Shown: positions 5,135 through 27,472 of the stretch, one piece after another | Layout: every line of letters begins with the position of its first letter | Position numbering within the stretch: position 1 is the stretch's first letter | Assembly (NCBI GenBank): GCA_024401305.1 | Contig: JAKSLI010000023.1 | Span: 1 to 43,639 of the forward strand | Origin: Bacteroidaceae bacterium | Lineage (GTDB): Bacteria > Bacteroidota > Bacteroidia > Bacteroidales > Bacteroidaceae | Direction: 5' to 3' | Length of the DNA: 43,639 nt | Program-made: the position numbers and the translations under genes | The notes under the pieces: model-generated | Told to the model about the DNA's origin: nothing | Seen by the model: only the letters and a program-made list of their open reading frames with translations | Database searches by the model: none

Positions 5135-5341
5135 AACAAGCCTCTCCCCCCAGCCCCCTCCCGGCCCCCTCTAACTCCCCCCTTAGGGGGCGAACTAAAG
5201 ATAGGAGTACCATTTTGAAGGGGGAGTGATATGTTTTGTGGGAGAGATTTATATCACTATATAAAATACTAATTGCCTCATCCTTATAGTGTAATTACTC
5301 CCCCTCCCATTATTAGGGGGAGGGGGTAAGGGGGGAGAGGC
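5135..5341. repeat. GC-rich intergenic element 1 (mtnN/der gap)
   Basis: It fills the whole gap between two co-directional genes. The ends are complementary: GCCTCTCCCCCC near 5142 and GGGGGGAGAGGC at about 5328-5339. Each end carries its own hairpin (CTCCCCCTCCCATTATTAGG with a matching right half). The middle has the conserved GAGTGATATG ... ATATCAC pair. A second short palindrome with flank (5163-5213) is nested in the left part. In transcription direction the element begins at the der stop and ends about 5 bases before mtnN, offering GGGGAGAGG as a ribosome-binding-like sequence. Confidence 0.85.
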
Positions 5342-6655
5342 TTATTTCTGCCTTACAAAAATGTTTATTGGCGAACCTGTAAGCGTCCAGGTCTCGCGAA
5401 TCTTGTTCTCGAGGAAACGCTTGTAAGGTTCCTTAACATACTGCGGAAGGTTTGCGTAGAACACGAAAGATGGTATCTGTGTGTCCGGAAGCTGTGCGCA
5501 GTACTTGATCTTGATGTACTTGCCCTTGATGGATGGCGGTGGTGTTGCCTCGATGATAGGCAGCATCACTTCGTTGAGTTTTGTCGTTCCGATGCGTGCC
5601 TTGCGGTTGAGATACACTTCCTTCGCGGTCTCAAGAACCTTGAAGATGCGCTGCTTCGTGAGTGCAGAGGCGAAGATTATTGGAAAGTCCTTGAACGGTG
5701 CCATGCGCTCACGAATGGCGTTCGTGAAGGTGTCGATGACAATCTGCGATTTCTCTTCCACGAGGTCCCATTTGTTTACTACGACAACGAGACTCTTGTG
5801 GTTCTTCTGTATGAGCTGGAAGATGTTCATGTCCTGTGCCTCAATACCACGAGTGGCGTCGAGCATGAGGATGCAGACATCGCTGTTCTCGATGGCACGG
5901 ATGGAACGCATCACGCTATAGAACTCAAGGTCTTCTGTCACCTTGTTCTTGCGACGGATGCCGGCAGTGTCAACGAGGTAGAAGTCGAAGCCGAACTTGT
6001 CGTAACGAGTGTAGATGCTGTCGCGAGTTGTGCCGGCAATGTCTGTCACGATGTTGCGGTCTTCGCCGATGAAAGCGTTGATGAGTGAACTCTTGCCCGC
6101 ATTAGGACGACCAACAACGGCAAAGCGAGGAATGCCTTCCTCGAGCGGAGTGTCGGTTTCCTTTGGCAGAGTCTCAAGGATGAGGTCAAGTAGATCGCCA
6201 GTGCCAGAGCCTGTAGCGGCAGAGATACACTGCGGTTCGCCAAGACCGAGTTTGTAGAATTCAGCTCCGAGATAGATGCCTTCGTTGTTGTCGATCTTGT
6301 TGACAGCAAGTATCACGGGGAGTTTTGTGCGGCGAAGAATCATCGCCACATCCTCGTCCCAGTCTGTTACGCCATTGAGTCCGTCGCACACGAAGAGAAT
6401 CATCTGAGCCTCTTCAGTGGCAACAATAACCTGCTTGCGAATCTCCTCTTCGAAGATGTCGTCAGAGTTTACTACCCATCCGCCGGTATCTACAACAGAG
6501 AATTCACGGCCGCACCATTCGCATTTTCCATACTGGCGGTCGCGTGTGGTGCCGGCTTCATCACTGACAATGGCACTACGGGTTTTTGTTAATCGATTGA
6601 AAAGTGTAGATTTGCCCACATTAGGGCGTCCTACAATAGCTACTAAGTTTGACAT
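5342..6655 (-). CDS. der: Ribosome biogenesis GTPase Der (EngA)
   Basis: Der is an essential GTPase with two tandem G domains that assists maturation of the 50S subunit. Both P-loops are visible, GRPNVGKS (residues 9-16) and GRPNAGKS (182-189), with TTRD switch sequences after each, DTGG and DTAG motifs, and NKID and NKWD guanine-specificity motifs. The C-terminal KH-like domain (about residues 350-437, [19 protein letters not shown]) is complete. The length of 437 is normal. Minus-strand GAGGAGG precedes the start by about 8 bases. It lies between mtnN and the DUF2723 gene, with repeat elements in both gaps. Confidence 0.97.
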
Positions 6656-6838
6656 AAAATAAACCTCCTCAACGGACCCACCCCCCCAACCCCTCCCTTA
6701 CAAGGAGGGGAGGAATATGCTTCTGTAGATTGGTGGATTTCGTTGAGTGGAATGTGTGAATTAATAATTTGAAATTGATTACATCTTAGCAAGACTATCT
6801 CCTCCCCGTCCTGAAAGGAAGGGGTAGGGGGAAGGTCT
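6656..6838. repeat. GC-rich intergenic element 2 (der/DUF2723 gap), divergent copy
   Basis: Same layout as the other elements but more diverged. Left hairpin CCCCTCCCTTACAAGGAGGG, then GAATATGC matching the GTGATATGC position, then an AT-rich middle, then right hairpin CCCCGTCCTGAAAGGAAGGG and GTAGGGGGAAGG. It runs from the DUF2723 stop to the der ribosome-binding site. Confidence 0.7.
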
Positions 6839-26272: not shown

Positions 26273-26485
26273 AAGCCCTACCCCCGCCCCCTCCCCGGCC
26301 CCCTCTAACTCCCCCCTTAGGGGGCGAATTAAAGATAGGAGTACCATTTTGGAGGGGAGTGATATGCTTTTGTGGGGAGTATTATATCACATTAATTAAT
26401 TATTGTCTATTATCTAAAACCTCAACCGTTTAAAGGTAATTCCTCCCCCTCCCATTATTAGGGGGAGGGGGTAAGGGGGGAGAGG
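26273..26485. repeat. GC-rich intergenic element 4 (pyrG/dapF gap)
   Basis: Fills the gap completely. The right half is CTCCCCCTCCCATTATTAGG, its complement and GGGGGGAGAGGC. The left half has a nested short palindrome plus flank (about 26299-26340, CTCCCCCCTTAGGGGGCGAA then GATAGGAGTACCATTTTG) that is also nested in element 1 but absent from element 5. The middle is nearly identical to element 5. Confidence 0.88.
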
Positions 26486-27301
26486 CTAGATCGTTCCGTC
26501 GAAAACGAATTCGGCAGGACCTGTCATCATGATGTGACTGTCAGACTCTTGCCAGCAGTTTGTTACGCTGCCGCCATCCATCTTGATTGTTGACTGTCGT
26601 GGAGCTCTGCCTGTGAGGAAAGCAGCCACGGTAGTAGCGCAAGAACCAGTGCCGCAAGCCCATGTTATTCCGCTGCCACGCTCCCAAACTCTCATGCGTA
26701 TCGTGCCGTCTGGAAGTATGTTGGCGAACTCGATGTTGCAGCGTTCAGGAAAGGCTGGGTGGAACTCCAGTGCCTTGCCATGAGCCTCAATATCATACTG
26801 CTCAACATCCTCGTCAAGGAAAATGACATAGTGTGGATTTCCCATGCTAACGAAAGTGCCTTCTGGAAGTCCTGTGGCTTTCTCTGGGCAGAACTGATGT
26901 TTTGCATCTTCAGCCATTATTGGACATCCCATATCCACGGTAACGCTTTCCGTCTTTCCGTTCTCGTCAAGATGAAGATGGAGAATCTTTATGCCGGAAC
27001 GGGTCTCGAGTCGGATGATTGTCTTGTCCGTAATACCCTTGTCGTGAAGATATTTCGCAACACAACGAGTTCCGTTTCCGCACATCATTGCCTCGGAACC
27101 GTCGTTGTTGAAGATGCGCATAGAGTAGTCGGCGTGAATGGATTCTGGATAACCGATGAGAATCAGTCCATCGCTGCCGATACCGAAGTGATAACGGCTC
27201 CACTTCTTTGAAAACTCCTCAGGGTCTTCTATATTGTAGAGCATGGTGTTGACATAAATGTAATCATTGCCAGCACCATGCATTTTTGTGAATTCTATCA
27301 T
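26486..27301 (-). CDS. dapF: Diaminopimelate epimerase
   Basis: DapF interconverts LL- and meso-diaminopimelate, the last common step to lysine and the peptidoglycan cross-link residue. The two-cysteine active site is present: C74 in MCGNGTRC and C216 in [16 protein letters not shown] at the N-terminus and GIGSDGLI are family signatures. At 271 residues it is of normal length. It uses the product of DapL, encoded 12 kb to the left. Both flanking gaps (to pyrG and asnB) are repeat elements, and the sequence just before its ATG is the GGGGAGAGGC end of one. Confidence 0.97.
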
Positions 27302-27472
27302 AGGCCTCTCCCCCCAGCCCCCTCCCCATATAATGGGAGGGGGAGTGATATGCTTTGTGGGGAGTATTATATCACATTAATTAATATTGTCTATTGTCTT
27401 AAACCTCAACCGTTTAAAGGTAATTCCTCCCCCTCCCATTATTAGGGGGAGGGGGTAAGGGGGGGAGAGGCA
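27302..27472. repeat. GC-rich intergenic element 5 (dapF/asnB gap), simplest form
   Basis: GCCTCTCCCCCC at the left and GGGGGGAGAGGC at the right are complementary. Each is joined to a C-rich/G-rich hairpin (left CCCCCTCCCCATATAATGGG, right CTCCCCCTCCCATTATTAGG). The middle has GAGTGATATGC ... TATATCAC. It lacks the nested insertion of elements 1 and 4, so it probably shows the basic element. Confidence 0.88.

Follow-up and report, generated by a model that had tools for sequence, protein, structure and literature searches.

Palindromic elements filling stop-to-start gaps in a Prevotella-like genome: candidate ORF-less copies of a nuclease-carrying mobile element

In the 43,639-nucleotide contig JAKSLI010000023.1 of a Bacteroidaceae bacterium (assembly GCA_024401305.1), analyzed whole and called the window below, five gaps between co-directional minus-strand open reading frames (ORFs) are each spanned from stop to start by a GC-rich element with complementary sides. 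These gap-filling elements, first described in an initial annotation made from the sequence, raise the question of what they are; that annotation offered either a device for translational coupling, in which the paired ends are melted by a ribosome finishing the upstream gene, or a mobile palindrome with very precise site choice. The window is contig C32 of a Prevotella-like genome of 3.2 Mb in 115 contigs, the assembly being 86% complete. All five elements were recovered at the positions first reported, and we regard it as probable, at roughly 0.6, that they are non-autonomous, ORF-less copies of a palindromic mobile element that carries a nuclease gene. This reading comes close to the second option, with dispersed arms, copies both in gaps and in frame within genes, and empty sites in relatives.

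Arm architecture and genomic distribution

Copies were collected, as the initial annotation had proposed, with a covariance model of one arm (R1, built from 26 sequences; E up to 0.001), which returned 79 ends at 55 sites of the genome, both arms being scored at 24 of them. A complete copy consists of two inverted arms of about 45 nt each that flank a variable middle. The arms of a copy pair with each other along their length, and most also fold a hairpin of their own. Three arm subfamilies were distinguished in the source genome, beginning with GCCTCT, GCCCCA and (A)GACCTT, respectively. The family thereby shows the hallmark of miniature inverted-repeat transposable elements (MITEs), a short non-coding core enclosed by inverted repeats at its ends and dispersed in many copies.

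The predicted preference for co-directional gaps was borne out. The 55 sites comprise 47 co-directional gaps, five positions inside ORFs, two convergent gaps and one contig edge, with no divergent gap, whereas the element-free gene pairs of the same loci are 120 co-directional, 30 convergent and 28 divergent (47 against 2 + 0, background 120 against 58; Fisher p ~1e-5). The bias persists when only short gaps, 52/67 of them co-directional, serve as the background (p = 0.005), and one of the convergent sites (contig C83) acquires two minus-strand neighbours under an alternative ORF choice. The fit to the gap is tight: for 18 complete ORF-less elements in gaps, the flanks left over have a median of 6 nt, compared with a median of 112 nt for 94 element-free co-directional gaps (62/94 longer than 60 nt), the start-codon and length rules differing slightly between the two sets. 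Only one arm was scored by the model at 26 of the 47 co-directional sites, the stop-side arm in 21 and the start-side arm in five; in at least four of the 21 stop-side-only copies, a variant start-side arm is present but was missed by the model.

The elements are also oriented. Their inner arm edges are AATTAC-like or ATATG-like, and among 19 complete ORF-less gap copies (one of which, L246, is flanked by a neighbour on a single side) 16 carry the AATTAC-type arm at the stop side and the ATATG-type arm at the start side. Two more agree by their single readable arm and one is seemingly reversed, so that polarity follows gene direction in 18/19. Two in-gene copies were read as well: the first is reversed, and the second is consistent with reversal by one arm; the polarity of three DUF559-bearing copies is mixed.

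A DUF559 nuclease gene between the arms

At two sites of the genome (L017:2621-3228 and L019:4375-4933), the arms of this family enclose an ORF. It was identified as DUF559 (PF04480) by a match above the cut-off, with the 'Endonuclease-Like Protein' 3hrl as a solved relative; the domain is described as frequent in Vsr-like PD-(D/E)XK endonucleases in the passages available from PMC12907096. Residues E52, W56 and Q75 are present in 53/53 aligned sequences and H112 in 52/53, and the conservation of D95, E106 and D108 is partly forced by the selection motif. Comparison of the L019 ORF with its orthologue in a sister species gave dS 1.15 and dN 0.117; this one DUF559 ORF is under purifying selection between the two species. 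The source genome holds seven solo DUF559 ORFs, all seven with co-directional neighbours and surrounded by at least four arm types, as judged by eye.

The 300 nt upstream of each DUF559 gene were locally aligned with the reverse complement of the 300 nt downstream, with a threshold score of 15. The loci were the best-scoring ones returned rather than all matches: 55 were given and 52 scored (L208, L226 and L228 were not scorable), after exclusion of L037, a 985-aa ORF of the source genome, and of the weak matches L197-L199 and L229-L234. The threshold was reached by 35/52 loci (own genome 6/7, genus 18/25, phylum 11/20), by 0/411 random places in genus loci and by 14/260 swapped pairs. In a plasmid sample of 10 of 35 records, picked across genera of Cyanobacteriota, Deinococcota and Pseudomonadota with human pathogens set aside, 7/10 DUF559 loci scored above all 200 mononucleotide shuffles. 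The arm of a Pseudanabaena plasmid occurs at seven places on its own plasmid and also on Synechocystis plasmids. In other phyla, too, inverted C-tract arms accompany DUF559.

Genes of GIY-YIG nucleases (24 loci scored of 30, six edge loci being skipped) failed as a plain negative control, since their flanks are complementary too, though of different sequence. A C-tract on both flanks was found in 17/52 DUF559 loci, 0/24 GIY-YIG loci (Fisher 0.0008) and 0/411 random places, and a GTCATT pattern on both flanks in 8/24 GIY-YIG loci, 0/52 DUF559 loci (Fisher 4e-5) and 0/411 random places; these patterns, like the polarity described above, were defined after the sequences had been viewed, which makes the p-values optimistic. 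In these 8/24 loci, solo GIY-YIG genes of Bacteroidota (L343-L372) are bracketed on both flanks by a dispersed repeat of the GTCATTCTGAG type, different from the DUF559 arms. CGTC-type REPs are described as lacking a dedicated transposase (PMC3733652).

After trpA (named by eye), the sister genome has a complete ORF-less element upstream of the DUF559 ORF (L286:4350-4560), and the source genome has the first arm only (L235:4820-4930), which overlaps the stop region of the upstream gene. At L192, L205 (gmk) and L185 (amino-acid kinase) the DUF559 ORF is open in frame into the next gene, which may give a read-through fusion. The 985-aa frame of L037 (G000:C54), helicase-like by eye, includes a divergent DUF559-like domain, with no arm in the stretch viewed. 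On the cyanobacterial plasmids of L333 and L338, DUF1156-type genes adjoin the DUF559 genes, and the element may split them.

The window elements, their counterparts in relatives and in-frame copies

All five window elements are read on the minus strand and none contains an ORF. Element 1 (5135..5341) lies between der and the PNP_UDP_1 phosphorylase gene and has GCCTCT ends; element 2 (6656..6838), of the GACCTT subfamily, fills the gap of the TMEM260-like gene and der, which thus (5342..6655, minus strand) has an element on each side. Element 3 (16043..16211), of the GCCCCA subfamily, separates the genes of the large and small subunits of glutamate synthase. In the gap of dapF and pyrG lies element 4 (26273..26485), with a GCCTCT stop-side arm and a variant start-side arm, where gene order differs from that of relatives. 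Element 5 (27302..27472), of the GCCTCT subfamily, fills the gap of the asparagine synthase gene and dapF, so that dapF (26486..27301, minus strand) is likewise flanked, by elements 5 and 4. The Pfam names of the flanking genes are PNP_UDP_1 phosphorylase, Der, TMEM260-like, GltD-like oxidoreductase, glutamate synthase, CTP synthase, DapF and asparagine synthase.

The initial annotation gave the five elements one plan, which holds in part. The sides of each element are complementary, but through three arm subfamilies and not through a single literal end pair: the ends GCCTCTCCCCCC / GGGGGGAGAGGC occur on both sides of elements 1 and 5 and on the stop side of element 4, whereas element 3 ends in GCCCCACCCC / GGGGTGGGGC and element 2 in GACCTTCCCCC (stop side) and GGACCCACCCCC (start side). 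The middle GTGATATG...ATATCAC, described as common to all, is found in only some of them and is absent from element 2, and most arms, not every one, form the hairpin assigned to each side. The near-identity of elements 4 and 5 was confirmed (96% match over ~132 bases). Elements 1 and 4 have a start-side arm of a different type with an extra hairpin module, CCCCCTCTAACTCCCCCCTTAGGGGGCGAA..., at 5160-5230 and 26295-26360 of the window, respectively; the module is also present in L011, L012 and the copy that the sister carries in the gap of element 5.

The sister genome (L098) is a metagenome-assembled genome from horse faeces labelled Bacteroidaceae, the nearest named genome by Der protein (96%); the other 79 Der loci are mostly labelled Prevotella or Prevotellaceae. 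For its 39 ends, 20 stretches were examined; a further relative, G155, was compared at selected loci. The empty gaps anticipated in related genomes were found, as plain gaps of 12 to 38 nt at several such sites. The element at L013:4050 corresponds to a 36-nt plain gap in the sister (L293). Where the DUF559 element lies between leuA (named by eye) and leuC, both the sister (38 nt) and G155 have a plain gap. In G155, asnB and pyrG are 12 nt apart with no dapF between them, and element 5, dapF and element 4 lie in between here; dapF of the sister is followed by a plain gap and then another gene, not pyrG as here. A survey of dapF in 60 genus genomes yielded no empty sites, as gene order differs. 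At the element 1 site, no element follows der in the sister, and synteny breaks off at that point.

In the element 2 gap, the sister holds an element of the GCCTCT subfamily. At elements 3 and 5 both species have a copy in the gap, but the arm types are not the same; at element 5 it is the stop-side arm of the sister that differs. The sister's element-3 copy has a middle like that of element 4 here, a likeness suggestive of ectopic copying. In G155 (L376:922-1501), a left arm followed by a gene that is peroxiredoxin-like by eye, possibly gene cargo, stands between two operon genes; the same site is a plain gap in the sister and holds an ORF-less element in the source genome.

Insertions in frame within unrelated protein genes, as known for the RPE repeats of Rickettsia, were encountered as well. 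The DUF559 element lies inside the genes for LeuRS (L206, L218), MetH (L212), an ABC-F protein (L181) and an IGHMBP2-like helicase (L183, L193), and in several DUF559 host genes the arms are visibly translated. In three further cases, a single open frame joins DUF559 to HsdM (L210), to an MmeI-like methylase (L207) or to an M23 peptidase (L217), with DUF559 either inside or at an end. In MetH, residues 464-627 replace 19 residues of 9ssp; in SufS of the source genome, an ORF-less copy, residues 154-191, replaces seven residues of 5vpr. NspC has additional stretches of ~10 and ~29 residues relative to 36gy, the first of which matches one arm, and further in-gene ORF-less copies of the source genome lie in a GT2 enzyme and, as two single arms, in a CMD/cupin protein. 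At leuC (L247:2955-4388), the right arm of the DUF559 element is in frame ~20 codons after the start, so that the arms bracket the leuC start.

Competing explanations, mechanism and known repeats

A functional intercistronic RNA element, whose paired ends would couple the upstream stop to the next start in the mRNA or whose hairpins would serve processing or stability, would account for the stop-to-start filling, the co-directional bias, the polarity that follows gene direction in 18/19 complete gap copies and the long stable folds; we nevertheless consider it unlikely. Arms of the same copy do match each other above arms of other copies on average (0/5000 permutations, 34 copies), much of this being due to subfamily, and in the hairpin stretch of the GCCTCT subfamily the mean is 18.8 within copies and 15.6 between copies (0/20000 permutations, n=21). 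The mismatches between arms on the gene-sense strand comprise 22 G-U, 27 A-C and 50 transversions; an earlier fair count gave 16 G-U against 34 A-C, and mismatches within hairpins, counted apart, gave 21 G-U against 15 A-C. A G-U excess in the first count (17 against 6 A-C) was dropped, since its scoring rewarded G-U, and two fairer counts reversed it. Arm mismatches show no G-U excess, so nothing here favours pairing in mRNA. Arm likeness without a G-U bias fits correction at the DNA level, or copying of arm from arm, no less well than selection for mRNA pairing and probably better. Relatives with plain gaps at these places, the single model-scored arm at 26/47 sites and the in-frame copies also speak against coupling, which is meaningless for the latter because they sit inside coding genes. 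The window contains no Rfam family at gathering score, the stretch 26200-27520 gave sub-threshold microRNA matches only, and a known RNA family was rejected. Translational coupling is therefore not supported, as far as the sequence can tell, and some effect on translation may exist all the same.

It is rather unlikely, in our estimate, that a conventional transposase that escaped notice moves the elements as a MITE, REPIN or RPE, DUF559 being a passenger that lands or survives well in repeats. Inverted arms and dispersed and in-frame copies typify known palindromic repeats (PMC3116915, PMC3733652, PMC10969869, in the parts consulted), and DUF559 sometimes lies outside the arms (L286). Against this, the link with DUF559 reappears in other phyla and with arms of different sequence, and the Y1 (PF01797) matches of the genome are just two, of 28.2 and 23.9 bits, other transposase families not having been searched; no arm was found on the two Y1 contigs with the arm model or around the Y1 matches with blastn. 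A RAYT gene accompanied by the same repeats was not found in this 86% complete assembly, and a RAYT or Y1 transposase as the mover is not supported. The initial annotation had named two findings that would count against its reading, copies in all contexts alike and an ordinary transposase; copies do occur inside genes, but divergent gaps contain none and convergent gaps two, and no ordinary transposase was seen, Y1 being the only one searched by name. The elements might instead be gene-cassette linkers, interchangeable joints through which single genes such as dapF, the peroxiredoxin-like gene or DUF559 enter operons by recombination between copies, in a geometry resembling that of integron attC sites, which are palindromic and lie between co-directional genes. 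Element pairs bracket single genes, dapF stands between two elements where asnB and pyrG adjoin in G155, a left arm and the peroxiredoxin-like gene of G155 take the place of a plain gap in the sister, and gene order shifts at elements 1 and 4. Such joints could also be a by-product of repeat-mediated recombination, some elements split genes adjacent in relatives without gene gain (L013), the arms are unlike attC core sites, and no integrase was seen, though none was sought; we hold this explanation to be very unlikely.

Several observations weigh against a nuclease-carrying mobile element as the source of the five copies. No movement was observed, and neither a target-site duplication nor a clean target motif was found by eye in the few empty sites, where a short duplication could hide in diverged flanks. 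The DUF559 ORF is not always enclosed by both arms, as after trpA in the sister, and the right arm inside leuC is unexplained by a single simple insertion. Over the whole 44-nt arm, a copy's own partner is the single best match in 1/34 copies, not above expectation. Among the DUF559 loci, 17/52 fall under the flank threshold and 3/10 of those on plasmids fail to exceed the shuffles; moreover, the random places are genus-only, whereas 20/52 DUF559 loci belong to the wider phylum sample. GIY-YIG flanks are enriched too, with 5/24 at a score of at least 15 and 11/24 at a score of at least 12. Repeats may thus surround small nuclease genes in general, which would allow the nuclease to be a mere passenger.

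If the five elements do derive from a nuclease-carrying element, movement by the DUF559 nuclease, as read from sequence associations, might proceed as follows. The nuclease would cut or nick DNA, with the arms and the target as possible substrates, and the fold-back element would be copied into the break. ORF-less copies would be moved in trans or spread by ectopic recombination. The co-directional and one-polarity bias could reflect selection against transcript-breaking insertions, together with some further target rule. This mechanism does not account for the polarity, for the precise fit between stop and start or for the displacement of the right arm into leuC. A wider proposal, which we put forward tentatively and with more doubt than confidence, is that DUF559-type PD-(D/E)XK nucleases are the movers of cross-phylum C-tract palindromic elements without a transposase, and GIY-YIG nucleases likewise with a separate GTCATT-type repeat. 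Under this proposal, the nuclease would open the target, the fold-back element would be copied in and the arms kept alike, and insertion would be harmless by landing between stop and start or by staying in frame.

Palindromic repeats are a known kind, as are in-frame copies of them and a preference for certain gaps. Among the closest, in the passages seen, is the REPIN / RAYT system (PMC3116915, PMC3733652), with dispersed inverted hairpin pairs, a variable spacer, a mostly extragenic location and a dedicated enzyme proposed to act in trans; here, by comparison, the arms are ~45 nt, C-rich and begin with GCC or GACC, co-directional gaps are filled exactly, and the partner ORF is a DUF559 (Vsr-like) nuclease and not a tyrosine transposase. 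The RPE, as portrayed in the available text of PMC10969869, are palindromic elements of ~150 bp in frame in unrelated protein genes; the present family differs in the association of its arms with a nuclease ORF and in the location of most copies in gaps (47/55 sites). PINSR of Prevotella intermedia is similarly a short intergenic repeat amplified in one Prevotella lineage but was rejected as the identity of the elements, being 188 bp long and stated, in the portion consulted, to be without terminal inverted repeats (PMC4755523). Vsr / DUF559 nucleases such as VsrA of Caulobacter belong to the same protein domain family as the ORF here; VsrA is tied to mismatch repair and cytosine methylation, and the main text, as far as seen, is without mention of palindromes or inverted repeats (PMC12907096). 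Among the matches listed in a literature search, which left subscription journals and preprints mostly outside, no paper dealt with the DUF559-arm link or the exact gap filling. C-rich palindromic repeats of this look are common in bacterial genomes, and to our knowledge no mover is known for them.

The link to one nuclease family, across unrelated arms and several phyla, makes the origin of such repeats directly testable, and the nuclease-carrying long copies suggest a possible mover of a widespread and unexplained class of bacterial repeats. The in-frame copies in LeuRS, MetH, SufS and LeuC illustrate how proteins can absorb whole insertions, and the stop-to-start elements how operons can be re-joined. 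If the wider proposal is true, small nucleases with their own palindromes would constitute a general, unrecognised class of bacterial mobile elements, which would also import genes into operons.

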